Source: an uncultured Roseobacter sp.
GTDB taxonomy: Bacteria > Pseudomonadota > Alphaproteobacteria > Rhodobacterales > Rhodobacteraceae
NCBI RefSeq assembly: GCF_947496515.1
Contig: NZ_CANMDB010000004.1
Location: 124,001-188,000, forward strand
Direction: 5' to 3'
DNA length: 64,000 nucleotides
Part shown: positions 1,619-4,564 of the stretch, piece after piece
How positions within the stretch are numbered: the stretch's first letter is position 1
How the letters are laid out: each line of letters begins with the position of its first letter
Made by a program: the position numbers and the translations under genes
The notes under the pieces: model-generated
Database searches by the model: none
Told to the model about the DNA's origin: nothing
Seen by the model: only the letters and a program-made list of their open reading frames with translations

Positions 1619-2401
1619 TCACCCGTCCAAATCAACCCAGACTGGTACGTGATCGGACGGTTTGTCCCGCCCGCGCACCTCTTTGTCGATCACGCAGTCG
1701 CGCAAGGCGTCCGCGGTCTGAGGGCACAACAGGATATGGTCGATGCGGATGCCTTGGTTGCGATTCCACGCGCCTGCCTGATAATCCCAGAAACTGTAGT
1801 GCCCGGGTCCCTGCACCCGCGCGCGAAAGGCATCCGTCAGCCCTAGGTTGAGCAACGCGCGAAAGGCGGTACGGCTTTCCAGTCGAAAGAGCGCATCCTC
1901 ACGCCAGCTGTCCGGCGCGGCTGCATCTTCGGCCTGTGGAATGATGTTATAGTCACCGGCCATCAGAAACGGCGTCTCTTCTGCCAGAAGTTCTTTTGCC
2001 CGGGTCTGCAGCCGCTGCATCCACGCAAGCTTGTAGTCATACTTCGGTCCCGGTGCCGGGTTCCCATTGGGCAGGTAGAGCCCGCACACCCGCACGGCTG
2101 TACGCTCTCCCATAACAGTTGCCTCGATCCAGCGCGCCTGTTCGTCACCGTCATCCCCGGGCAGCCCGCGTGTCACATCTTCCAAGGGCAGCCGCGACAG
2201 GATCGCCACACCGTTGAAGCTTTTCTGACCGTGCGTCTCGACGTTGTAGCCCCGGTCCTCGAAGAGCGCGCGGGGAAAGGCGTCATCAACGGATTTGATC
2301 TCCTGCAGGAGCACCACATCGGGCTTTGCCTCATCAAGCCACTCTGGCAGCGCCGCGATTCGTGCCTTGATTCCGTTGATGTTGAATGTGGCGATCTTCA
2401 T
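1619..2401 (-). CDS. xth: Exodeoxyribonuclease III
   Basis: 260 residues, the normal length for the family. This Mg-dependent enzyme cuts at abasic sites and removes 3' blocks in base-excision repair. Visible motifs are FNINGIKAR with the conserved Asn7, LLQEIKS with metal-ligand Glu34, the catalytic AGDYN segment, and the C-terminal SDHVPV with the general-base His. It is transcribed away from the AT-rich spacer to its right, so its promoter lies there. The alternative, a plain endonuclease/exonuclease/phosphatase-fold protein, is unlikely because the whole xth pattern is present. Confidence 0.93.
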   Translation of the reverse strand: MKIATFNINGIKARIAALPEWLDEAKPDVVLLQEIKSVDDAFPRALFEDRGYNVETHGQKSFNGVAILSRLPLEDVTRGLPGDDGDEQARWIEATVMGERTAVRVCGLYLPNGNPAPGPKYDYKLAWMQRLQTRAKELLAEETPFLMAGDYNIIPQAEDAAAPDSWREDALFRLESRTAFRALLNLGLTDAFRARVQGPGHYSFWDYQAGAWNRNQGIRIDHILLCPQTADALRDCVIDKEVRGRDKPSDHVPVWVDLDG

Positions 2402-2735
2402 GCGCAGGCTCTCCTTGATGCCTTGCTATCGCCCAGCACCGGACGCAGGGCAAGCCAACAAGTCGCGGCAATGCAGCATTTCGTTAAGGTGATTCTTGTT
2501 AATGGTTAACCAAAAAGAGCCTGATTTGGTTAATATCCACAGAATTACCCTCTGTGGATAAAAAAAAATTAACGAAGATTACCAGATCGACTTCTCAAAC
2601 TCCGCCGTTCACTACGCTCGGATTTTTGTGTGGATAACTGGGGGTTAACACATTCTTAACGCGAAAATACCTTTGCAACTCTCGTTAAGGGGGCAAGGCT
2701 GAAGGGGTAATCACTTCACTGGAAAGGGACGATCA
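2402..2735. promoter_or_regulatory. AT-rich divergent control region with DnaA-box and CtrA-type motifs
   Basis: This 334-base spacer separates xth (minus strand) from the repeat-peptide gene (plus strand) and is much richer in A+T than its surroundings. It holds about eight GTTAA/TTAAC words, two exact DnaA boxes (TGTGGATAA at 2553-2561 and 2629-2637), one near match (ATATCCACA at 2533-2541), and a 9-A run after 2560. A 10-bp inverted repeat pairs TATCCACAGA (2534-2543) with TCTGTGGATA (2551-2560). No gene is seen in it. It could be a replication-linked promoter region or an origin-like sequence; binding is inferred from motifs only. Confidence 0.55.
2645..2659. promoter_or_regulatory. Candidate CtrA binding site (TTAA-N7-TTAA)
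   Basis: A perfect TTAA, seven bases, TTAA arrangement, the full consensus of the alphaproteobacterial cell-cycle and motility regulator CtrA. It lies 77 bases before the ATG of the FTTSM-repeat gene, in a region already dense in TTAA. Background A+T makes chance occurrence possible. Confidence 0.45.
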
Positions 2736-3017
2736 ATGACCACCAACTTGGCACGCCGCACTGCAACACAAATCGATCACGATGCACCGCAAACGGATCT
2801 GCACTGCGGTGCAGGAACCGAGCTTTTTACCACCAGCATGGGCCCTGCAAGCGGCGACATCATGAGCGGTGAGGCAACGGGTCTCTTCACCACGTCCATG
2901 GGCCCGGAAGCCTCGACTCTCACCGGCGCCGAAACCGGCCAATTCACAACGAGCATGGTCTCGGGCAGCGATACGCTGTCGGGTGATGTCACCGGTCTCT
3001 TCACGACCTCCATGTAA
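2736..3017 (+). CDS. Short protein with four FTTSM repeats (precursor-peptide-like)
   Basis: 93 residues. An N-terminal segment of about 29 residues, with one Cys at 24, is followed by four units of 19-20 residues, each ending in FTTSM (31-35, 51-55, 70-74, 89-93). The protein stops exactly after the fourth copy. Units also share a Gly/Glu-Thr-Gly lead and Ser/Thr/Gly-rich spacers. The FTTSM codons differ synonymously between copies, including AGC versus TCC serines, so the repeat is kept at protein level. GGAAAGGGA is the ribosome site before ATG 2736. The layout resembles a multi-core peptide precursor or a short repetitive adhesive or structural protein; function unknown. I loosely associate it with a Rhodobacterales DUF (DUF6749) but cannot verify this. 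Confidence 0.75.
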   Translation: MTTNLARRTATQIDHDAPQTDLHCGAGTELFTTSMGPASGDIMSGEATGLFTTSMGPEASTLTGAETGQFTTSMVSGSDTLSGDVTGLFTTSM

Positions 3018-3031
3018 CGCAACAAACAGGT

Positions 3032-3051
3032 CCGGACCCCTGCGGGTCCGG
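3032..3051 (+). terminator. Intercistronic hairpin between repeat peptide and partner gene
   Basis: A perfect 8-bp stem (CCGGACCC with GGGTCCGG) closed by a 4-base loop, 14 bases after the repeat-gene stop and 47 before the next start. No T-run follows, so it is more likely an attenuator or mRNA-stabilising end than a full terminator. That would favour more product from the peptide gene than from its partner. Confidence 0.5.
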
Positions 3052-3098
3052 GCTCCACGCAACGCGCGGCCGGTGCTCGGGACAAAGGAAGAACCCCC

Positions 3099-4148
3099 AT
3101 GTCTAACGTCGTCTCTTTGGATCTGCCGCGCAAACTGCCTCTCGCGGAACGCCAGTCGGTCTTTCTGGGCAACTTTTGCTGCAACAGGCGTCGGCGTGAC
3201 GATGTCTTCTGGCTGAAGGAAAACGCGGAGCTTTTGAACATTCTGGCCAGCGGTGGTGCGATAGTGCCTGCCGAGGCCTTGGCGCCCTACCTGCGGATCT
3301 ATGACGGGTTGGACGAACGGCTGCGGTTTTTCCCACAATACTACCGGTTCCTGCTCTCTATCTGCCTCGATCTGGAGGATCTGGGGATCCGGACAGACGG
3401 CACCGGGACGGGTTTGTGCGACTGGGCCGCCCGTATGGGGCTGCCGGAGGCGGAGCTTTCCGATCTGCAACGCGCCGAGGCGCGGCGGCTTTTGGCCCGG
3501 CGGGGCGTCACCACGGACGATCCGCAGCTGACCGAGCGGTTGCACCGCTTTATCAACCGATCCGAAACCTTTGCATTGCCCAACAAAAAGGCAGTCTACG
3601 AGCTGACACATATCGTCTTTTATCTGTCGGACTACGGGGTCACCGACCCCGGTTTCGACCCCGCCGCCATCACCAGTCTGGAGTTCGCGGGGCTGCTGGC
3701 CTATCTCGATCTCGACGTTGATCTGCTCGCCGAGGTTTGCGTCGCCATGCGCTTTGCCGGCAAGATGCCCAGCCCGATCTGGGAGGATTGGGTCGAACAG
3801 CAGATGCGCGGTTTCGTCCTGAGCCCGCGTGATCCCGGCGGCGCGGATGCGTATCACGAGTATCTGGTGACCAGCTGGTGGGCGGCTTTTGCGGACCGGC
3901 CCCAGTTCCCCGGTCAGCCAGAGGCCGCAGGGCTGACCATCCAGCGGCGGGGTGGGCAGAAAGGCCCGCTGCGGGCAATGTCGGAATACATGTTCCACCT
4001 CGGGGCTGCGCGCAGTGCGGATTGGAGCCGGATGCGCCAGGCCGTAACCGATGCCGTGGGCCACGATGGTGAGGCCGTGCTCAGCGAAGCGGAGCAGTCC
4101 TCCGACCAGTTCGGCGCCTTCTTTGAGGGATTTGCGCGGGCTGACTGA
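3099..4148 (+). CDS. Partner protein of the FTTSM-repeat gene, unknown function
   Basis: 349 residues, no signal peptide, predicted mostly helical and cytoplasmic. Features seen are a CC-N-RRRR cluster near residues 27-34 followed by DDVFWLKENAELLNIL, and a central YELTHIVFYLSDYG segment whose Glu-Leu-Thr-His looks conserved and could be a metal or active-site motif. AAGGAAG precedes ATG 3099 by 7 bases. It lies 81 bases after the repeat gene on the same strand with only the hairpin between them, so the two probably form a unit. A modification enzyme or a dedicated binding partner of the repeat protein is possible but inferred from position alone. I loosely associate it with DUF6902, unverified. 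Confidence 0.75.
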   Translation: MSNVVSLDLPRKLPLAERQSVFLGNFCCNRRRRDDVFWLKENAELLNILASGGAIVPAEALAPYLRIYDGLDERLRFFPQYYRFLLSICLDLEDLGIRTDGTGTGLCDWAARMGLPEAELSDLQRAEARRLLARRGVTTDDPQLTERLHRFINRSETFALPNKKAVYELTHIVFYLSDYGVTDPGFDPAAITSLEFAGLLAYLDLDVDLLAEVCVAMRFAGKMPSPIWEDWVEQQMRGFVLSPRDPGGADAYHEYLVTSWWAAFADRPQFPGQPEAAGLTIQRRGGQKGPLRAMSEYMFHLGAARSADWSRMRQAVTDAVGHDGEAVLSEAEQSSDQFGAFFEGFARAD

Positions 4149-4160
4149 GCCTGCGCGACA

Positions 4161-4484
4161 CTACATCGAGAACGACGTGCCGCAGCCGCAGGAACTGGAA
4201 GCATTGGGGTTGTCGATCACGAACCGCGCGCCGATCAGCTCTTCGCTGAAATCAATTGTCGCCCCGCCCAGAAACGGCAGCGAAACCGCATCAACCACGA
4301 CTTTTTGGCCCGCGCCTTCGAGCACCAGATCGTCCTCGCGCGGCTCATCGAGCGCGATGTCGTACTGAAATCCGGAACAGCCGCCCCCATCCACTGCGAT
4401 GCGCAGCGCTTTGCCGTCGGTGGCGGCACCGATTTCGGCCAGCCTGTCAAAGGCGCGGGACGTGACTTTGGGCGGCAGTTGCAT
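4161..4484 (-). CDS. erpA: A-type iron-sulfur carrier (HesB/IscA/ErpA family)
   Basis: 107 residues. It carries Fe-S clusters to apo-proteins. The three ligand cysteines are present: Cys36 in GGGCSGFQY and the C-terminal CGCG pair at 99 and 101. ATG 4484 is chosen because AAGGAG lies 7 bases before it; a longer start at 4511 would add a non-conserved tail. The sequence is close to ErpA, but IscA or SufA cannot be excluded by eye. The dGTPase-like gene is divergent from it. Confidence 0.85.
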   Translation of the reverse strand: MQLPPKVTSRAFDRLAEIGAATDGKALRIAVDGGGCSGFQYDIALDEPREDDLVLEGAGQKVVVDAVSLPFLGGATIDFSEELIGARFVIDNPNASSSCGCGTSFSM

Positions 4485-4564
4485 GAGGACGCTCCTTGGG
4501 GGTGGTTTCATCCGGGCTCAGCACCGAATATAGAGATCCCGAGCACTGCCCACAAGGACCAGCC

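Follow-up and report, generated by a model that had tools for sequence, protein, structure and literature searches.

A window of 64,000 nucleotides from an uncultured Roseobacter sp. (the whole stretch analysed, contig NZ_CANMDB010000004.1, positions 124,001 to 188,000) carries two adjoining genes, one for a 93-residue peptide with four copies of the pentapeptide FTTSM and the other for a 349-residue protein of the Pfam family DUF6902. The pair probably forms a two-gene system akin to those for multi-core ribosomally synthesized and post-translationally modified peptides (RiPPs), in which the DUF6902 protein would modify each copy of the core, most likely by turning an L-residue into its D-form. 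The reading is carried by four things that were computed directly: the pairing of the two genes, the variation in copy number of the repeat, the selection on the core and the kinship of DUF6902 with another family, DUF6895. That the small gene encodes a precursor with a dedicated partner is near certain.

The pairing was studied in 394 Rhodobacteraceae genomes, nearly every one from a different genus. A DUF6902 gene was found in 108 of them (in 107 of 393 when counted by sampled genus), and a profile built from 13 precursors has a match in 97, all inside the 108; the precursor occurs alone in 0 of the 394, which answers in the affirmative the question, raised in the preliminary description of this DNA, whether the two genes are constantly paired. 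Eleven genomes have DUF6902 with no match to the profile: eight contain a divergent upstream repeat peptide missed by it (e.g. of the MMCCS and ALSPS types), two are devoid of any precursor (loci L143 and L163) and one (G167) has a DUF6902 fragment, the locus of which was not fetched. At the level of loci, 8 of the 105 fetched from the family were set aside because their upstream DNA was short or masked. In the 97 clean loci that remain, a repeat open reading frame (ORF) lies directly upstream of DUF6902 in 94 according to our script and in 95 if L154, with two near-copies recognized by eye, is included; L143 and L163 are the only ones without. The opposite outcome, a partner that usually lacks the repeat gene, was sought and not observed: the gene is lacking in these 2 of 97 only, and both have a decayed partner, as detailed below. 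A set of loci from named organisms, which overlaps the family set, gave a repeat ORF in 78 of 80; upstream DNA is limited to 200 and 85 bases in the two misses, and the ORF of L264, counted among the 78, is a wrong one at a contig edge. Within the genus of the window (its own genome and 16 others), DUF6902 has an upstream repeat peptide in 17 of 17 genomes, and FTTSM is found in at least one copy in 16 of them; the exception (L011/L166) has FVSAS in all four copies, and its sister (L012/L167) combines two FTSAS with one FTTSM. Five DUF6902 matches (G167:C17, G209:C73, G349:C22, G398:C214 and G398:C216), whose loci were not fetched, were left out.

Translation of the ORF bears out what had been described for the window precursor: its four FTTSM units are spaced by 20, 19 and 19 residues, and the last Met is the C-terminus. 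The copies also differ in codons, serine being written AGC, TCC, AGC and TCC in order. Amino-acid identity among them is 1.00 in the core and 0.17 in the spacers, and identity at the fourfold-degenerate sites of the core is 0.31. No match was found for this peptide in Pfam or NCBIfam at E up to 1. How exceptional such repeats are can be judged from control ORFs of the same loci: at least three copies of one 5-mer are present in 2 out of 4346 control ORFs versus 94 out of 114 DUF6902 loci, with the reservation that L104, which lies at a contig edge, was counted among the 94 from a wrong reading frame. Two copies of a 5-mer, found in 219 of the 4346 controls, are by themselves no evidence; in 11 of the 114 loci the call depends on two exact copies. 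Chance or recent duplication as the origin of the repeat is excluded by the 2 controls in 4346 with three copies or more and by the diverged synonymous sites.

Comparison of many precursors led to the same view of the core. Repeats were anchored only by G at position -6 and F or Y at position 0, and 149 of 158 precursors had three or more anchors. In these 149, the copies of one precursor have an identity of 0.91-0.96 at core positions +1 to +4, versus 0.34-0.58 between precursors, and spacer positions -13 to -7 are at 19-32% even inside one precursor. Mean values within precursors are 0.93 for the core versus 0.26 for the spacer, the core being higher in 149 out of 149 (choosing precursors by a repeated 5-mer favours high core identity, and favours neither the difference between lineages nor equal synonymous divergence). 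Fourfold-degenerate sites in matching codons are alike, with an identity of 0.46 in both core and spacer. Since the amino acids of the core are kept while fourfold sites diverge equally, it is therefore the peptide itself that is selected, and the repeat copies are mostly old, as had been proposed from the codons of the four FTTSM copies. One precursor weighs against this picture: in L217 (Ruegeria pomeroyi) the cores are mixed (0.64) and the copies apparently recent (fourfold identity of 0.97).

The commonest constants of the repeat unit are Phe at 0, Gly at -6, Thr or Val at -3, Ser, Thr or Cys at +2 (148 of 149 consensus cores) and Pro at +6; the stretch ahead of each core also has mostly Asp or Glu at -5, and Met or Leu at -1. 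Tails and spacings were counted on the 140 precursors whose core begins with F. The protein finishes exactly at core position +4 in 98 of them, which suggests that +4 is a real C-terminus. Spacing is mostly of 19-21 residues, is of 8 residues in 8 and irregular in 25, and some two-copy precursors are as short as 57 residues. Copy number varies among lineages from 2 to 20; this variation, which the preliminary description had put forward as a check, supports, with the strict pairing, the layout of repeated core and dedicated partner that had been likened there to a multi-core peptide system. Cores differ together, all copies at once, between lineages: among 155 partners there are 47 core states (46 when two ties are assigned to FTTSC), e.g. 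FTTSM, FVSAS, FSSGS, FTSGL, FTSWS, FTNWC, FTTSC, FITSC and MMCCS, which amounts to at least 66-67 changes on the DUF6902 tree (an approximate one, built with FastTree). Two different repeated cores coexist in 2 of 94 family precursors by our own criterion. One precursor (L059, 898-1434, the same place as L089) has FCSWS and FSSLS cores and might yield two products; mixed cores are also seen in L116 and L226. A metal-binding array of Cys or Met was rejected, neither residue being present in 103 of 155 core labels. Likewise, Pfam matches above cut-off to zf-FCS and TRASH_ZMYM4 among the hits of ten longer relatives concern short stretches and were taken as repeat-inflated.

The partner had been described as belonging to no known family. 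It is in fact a DUF6902 protein, matching PF21843 with 463.3 bits (gathering score 27) over its full length, residues 1-348, and the function of this family is listed as unknown in Pfam; the closest named relatives are Roseobacter records. The protein also matches DUF6895 (PF21836) with 72.7 bits (cut-off 23.8) over residues 71-231. Twelve positions are common to at least 85% of 22 aligned proteins (10 DUF6902 and 12 DUF6895-like), namely W38, E44, E119, Y167, T170, H171, F174, G180, D208, E212, Y252 and H253, and all are present in the window protein. Five of them, from Y167 to G180, fall within the segment YELTHIVFYLSDYG, which had already been singled out and can now be recognized as a superfamily signature. 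The Cys-Cys cluster noted at the same time is real in the window protein as the pair C27-C28, but it is not a family feature and was discarded as a conserved element: among the 75 sequences of the structure alignment (six of the 80 named partners, L194, L196, L246, L249, L250 and L254, being omitted), position 27 is Ala in at least 90% and position 28 is variable. One of the omitted partners, that of L254 (Roseovarius litorisediminis), has a DUF6902 frame that ends after 140 codons while the tblastn match, from 4001 onward, continues; this is a frameshift or a sequencing error.

Conservation of the 12 residues was counted on 109 rows (the fetched loci and the window, less L145, L146, L153, L155, L164 and L165 of 114). 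All are kept, or one differs, in 107 rows, the single differences being F174Y in eight rows and Y167F, T170L, Y252L and Y252F in one row each. Only two partners have lost several invariants, and they are those of the two clean loci without a precursor: L143 shows E44A, Y167R, T170V, H171R and D208S, and L163 has nine changes, including H171, D208, E212 and H253. The partner thus retains its putative active site alongside a precursor gene and has lost it in the two loci that lack one; these cases are few, but they agree with each other. These two copies (family genomes G316 and G067) appear to be decaying or repurposed. The AlphaFold2 model of the window protein has a predicted local distance difference test score (pLDDT) of 94.7. 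The predicted fold is all-helical and is perhaps an alpha/alpha toroid: enzymes of this fold are ranked first by VIA, with class II terpene cyclases and beta subunits of protein prenyltransferases as top solved folds. No known structure was found by sequence, the one hit being at E 0.39.

The kinship with DUF6895 gives a hint about the reaction. A DUF6895 protein is reportedly a lasso-peptide epimerase, to go by the title of a paper by Shi et al. (ACS Catal. 2026) in the reference list of a 2026 review. DUF6895 has matches in 8 of 299 genomes of the phylum at E 0.001, of which four are DUF6902 proteins and two are below cut-off, and it is found on plasmids of Streptomyces, Kitasatospora, Pseudalkalibacillus, Cupriavidus and Gemmatirosa (seven of eight plasmid records were read, and Actinomycetota chromosomes were outside the survey). 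A short peptide gene lies directly upstream of the DUF6895 gene in 6 of the 9 loci read (L179, L180 and L267-L270); in L271 such a gene is two genes away, and L272 and L273 allowed no clear call. By eye, most of these peptides combine a leader of the type SGLID..TTLEQL with one or two aromatic patches, e.g. LVGPWFVL or YVLAWDKYVLVV, the Pseudalkalibacillus peptide being the poorest fit to this pattern. The peptides encoded before DUF6895 in L179 (751-2388) and L180 (922-2838) have GxLVG[PR]W[FY]V-like segments, in two genes for the former and in two copies within one gene for the latter, and may represent a further precursor family. L271 (1451-5603, plasmid p1 of Streptomyces fungicidicus) carries genes for a cytochrome P450 and a 62-residue peptide, a 231-residue ORF, two tandem DUF6895 genes and then a serine hydrolase gene; it looks like an uncharacterised peptide cluster. 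DUF6902 itself is almost confined to Rhodobacteraceae: the lone match outside the family in 385 genomes of the class (G019) is below cut-off, and this outlier (L165) has a 78-residue peptide ORF upstream.

The mechanism that we propose is the following. One short core, FTTSM in the window, recurs several times in the precursor, and the conserved stretch ahead of every copy would serve as recognition sequence; DUF6902 would bind the linear precursor and modify every core, most likely by inverting one residue from L to D (epimerisation), through conserved acid/base residues (among H171, H253, D208, E212, E44 and E119) presumed to be on the inner helices of an alpha/alpha toroid; and host proteases encoded outside the locus would then free several identical short peptides per precursor. 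Modification, cleavage and export, as well as a signalling or interbacterial role, are what we infer, and the parts are not equally secure. That DUF6902 acts on the cores is very probable, in view of the pairing, the decayed partners of L143 and L163 and the DUF6895 parallel. Epimerisation is proposed because DUF6902 is kin to DUF6895; resting as it does on a distant homology to one reported enzyme, it is a serious possibility that we would not quite call probable. Release of short peptides from the precursor would be probable. A signalling role, with which uniform lineage-specific cores and the CtrA-type site described below are consistent, is doubtful. At this point one may also speculate, as an idea still less likely to hold, that roseobacters make lineage-specific very short peptides with D-amino acids, several to a precursor and, in some lineages, controlled by CtrA and so linked to quorum sensing, as private pheromones or interbacterial signals, the letters of the pentapeptide being the address and all copies changing together when lineages diverge.

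The proposed modification could have another chemical nature. With the same layout, DUF6902 might cyclise, dehydrate, prenylate or hydroxylate the cores, or act in some similar way. The alpha/alpha toroid fold serves many reactions, the top folds proposed by VIA are those of cyclases and prenyltransferases, and the Ser, Thr or Cys at +2 and the Phe at 0 are possible targets. Nevertheless, the sole characterised relative found is, by its title, reported as an epimerase, and H171, D208, E212 and H253 are among the positions common to both families; we regard another chemistry as rather unlikely.

Another explanation, already present in the preliminary description as a structural repeat and its chaperone, is that the units build the coils of a beta-solenoid or bind one ligand many times, DUF6902 being a chaperone or binding partner. 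The period of 19-21 residues of most copies would agree with it, and the AlphaFold2 model of a nine-copy precursor (L203) has a strand in every core, with low confidence (pLDDT 53, predicted template modelling score 0.47). However, the spacing of 8 residues in some precursors and the irregular one in others, the two copies accommodated in as little as 57 residues, the joint change of cores between lineages, which is hard to conceive for the core of a fold, and the decay of the partner's strict residue set where the precursor is missing all fit less well with this alternative, and we consider it improbable. Least likely of all, with the odds heavily against it, is an uncleaved array in which the repeats would stay joined and serve, in the cell or beyond it, as a multivalent ligand or as a scaffold: identical motifs connected by variable linkers would suit multivalent binding, and the conserved neighbours include neither an export nor a protease gene, but so many precursors stop exactly at +4, as a released peptide might, and cores spaced by 8 residues are almost fused.

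Features of the locus, with positions in the window
Feature	Position	Strand	Basis or remark
Divergent neighbour, Exo_endo_phos family	1619..2401	-	Pfam; marks the chromosomal site
TTAA-N7-TTAA, putative CtrA-type binding site	2645..2659	+	Exact pattern, 91 bases ahead of the precursor start codon
Multi-core precursor peptide gene, 93 amino acids, four FTTSM cores	2736..3017	+	ORF translation
Core 1, FTTSM, residues 31-35	2826..2840	+	Pattern search
Core 2, FTTSM, residues 51-55	2886..2900	+	Pattern search
Core 3, FTTSM, residues 70-74	2943..2957	+	Pattern search
Core 4, FTTSM, residues 89-93, stop codon directly after	3000..3014	+	Pattern search
Hairpin in the gap from precursor to partner gene, stem of 11 pairs, loop of 4	3029..3054	+	Stem 3029-3039/3044-3054
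DUF6902 protein, 349 amino acids, presumed core-modifying enzyme	3099..4148	+	PF21843 match
YELTHIVFYLSDYG, superfamily signature with Y167, T170, H171, F174 and G180	3597..3638	+	Alignment of DUF6902 and DUF6895-like proteins
Convergent neighbour, Fe-S_biosyn family	4161..4511	-	Pfam; marks the chromosomal site

The precursor and its partner occupy one largely fixed chromosomal site. According to tblastn, an Exo_endo_phos gene, which we take to be of the exodeoxyribonuclease III type, is divergent and upstream of the pair in 179 of 182 loci, and a Fe-S_biosyn gene, presumably for an A-type carrier, is convergent and downstream in 160 of 182, loci that are partly non-independent (the named and unnamed sets overlap, with 194 loci for 173 distinct partner proteins). 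No transporter or protease was found among the conserved immediate neighbours (182 loci by tblastn and six window genes by Pfam, wider flanks not having been scanned by family), and no lasso cyclase or leader peptidase among the same six window genes (Pfam, the rest of the genome not having been searched for them). Further away, a 158-residue protein (898-1374, - strand) without a Pfam match at E 0.001 shows, by eye, a hydrophobic N-terminal stretch. The pair as cargo of a mobile element, plasmid or phage was rejected, the window DUF6902 protein having no match at E 0.001 in 72,556 plasmid and 50,697 phage records and the site being syntenic; a defence system was rejected as well, PADLOC giving no match.

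Regarding expression, the TTAA-N7-TTAA upstream of the precursor is the sole exact match in the window, and the exact pattern is shared, between -88 and -95, by 17 of 17 loci of the same genus. Overall it occurs in 33 of 157 upstream regions versus a mean of 1.7 in first-order Markov controls, but 18 of the 33 sites come from the window's genus and elsewhere the frequency is 15 out of 139. The consensus for CtrA is given as TTAA-N7-TTAAC, and CtrA is linked with quorum sensing in Dinoroseobacter (PMC4046655). Control of the precursor by CtrA is likely in the window's genus, to judge from this motif, and is unproven in other lineages. The hairpin without a T-run that had been noted between the two genes does exist, inside a gap of 81 bases. 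For its stretch it is unexceptional (z of -0.28); stems of at least 8 pairs are found in 61 of 151 precursor-partner gaps versus 17.7 in mononucleotide shuffles, and their sequences differ. A terminator of the precursor gene is ruled out, the + strand having no T-run. The hairpin could set the ratio of precursor to enzyme, possibly as an attenuator.

Rhodobacteraceae are abundant in the sea, and the use that roseobacters make of such a peptide becomes a directly testable question. If DUF6902 is an epimerase, it would be a portable tool for placing D-residues in short peptides of which many identical copies are made. The residue that is altered, and the range of cores that the enzyme accepts, could be read from the 46-47 natural core types, each of which comes with its own partner. 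In addition, cores that agree in amino acids, differ in codons and change from one lineage to another provide a clear example of selection acting on the product of a repeated peptide.

A literature search found no paper naming DUF6902, and the hits for FTTSM were unrelated by their titles. The known kinds closest to this system are multi-core precursors and the DUF6895 epimerase, the latter reported as such in a title; the present pairing and its evolutionary pattern were not met in the literature searched, nor was this precursor/partner system found in titles and abstract beginnings on RiPPs, multi-core peptides, Roseobacter, lasso epimerases and CtrA. One of ten related precursors (that of L059) passes the cut-off of NF052472, the FlmA model (40.8 bits versus 30, best stretch of 20 residues), which we assume to be named for the FlmA of a Flagellimonas study. 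This hit was taken as repeat-inflated and, the window peptide having no NCBIfam match, an FlmA RiPP was rejected. In Flagellimonas, the peptide arginase FlmR acts on FlmA peptides, which have 55-56 residues and are of the DD(I/V)LF type (PMC12703449).

Several better known systems share one trait or another with the pair. In cyanobactins, dikaritins and plant burpitides a precursor likewise contains several cores, with recognition sequences between them. The modifying enzymes there are different ones, however, and the present system consists of two genes at a chromosomal site flanked by genes of housekeeping type, the immediate neighbours including no cluster protease. MslH presumably belongs to another protein family than DUF6902, a metallophosphatase-like one. 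It is described as the epimerase of the lasso peptide MS-271, and the introduction of a D-residue into a ribosomally made peptide is what DUF6902 would have in common with it. The nearest likeness is with DUF6895, by the profile match over residues 71-231, the 12 shared positions and the small peptide genes adjoining in 6 of 9 loci. On the other hand, DUF6902 forms a Pfam family of its own, almost only from Rhodobacteraceae; no lasso gene is among the six neighbouring window genes that were scanned, and the candidate substrate of DUF6902 is a tandem multi-core peptide without the type of leader seen by eye in the DUF6895 peptides.

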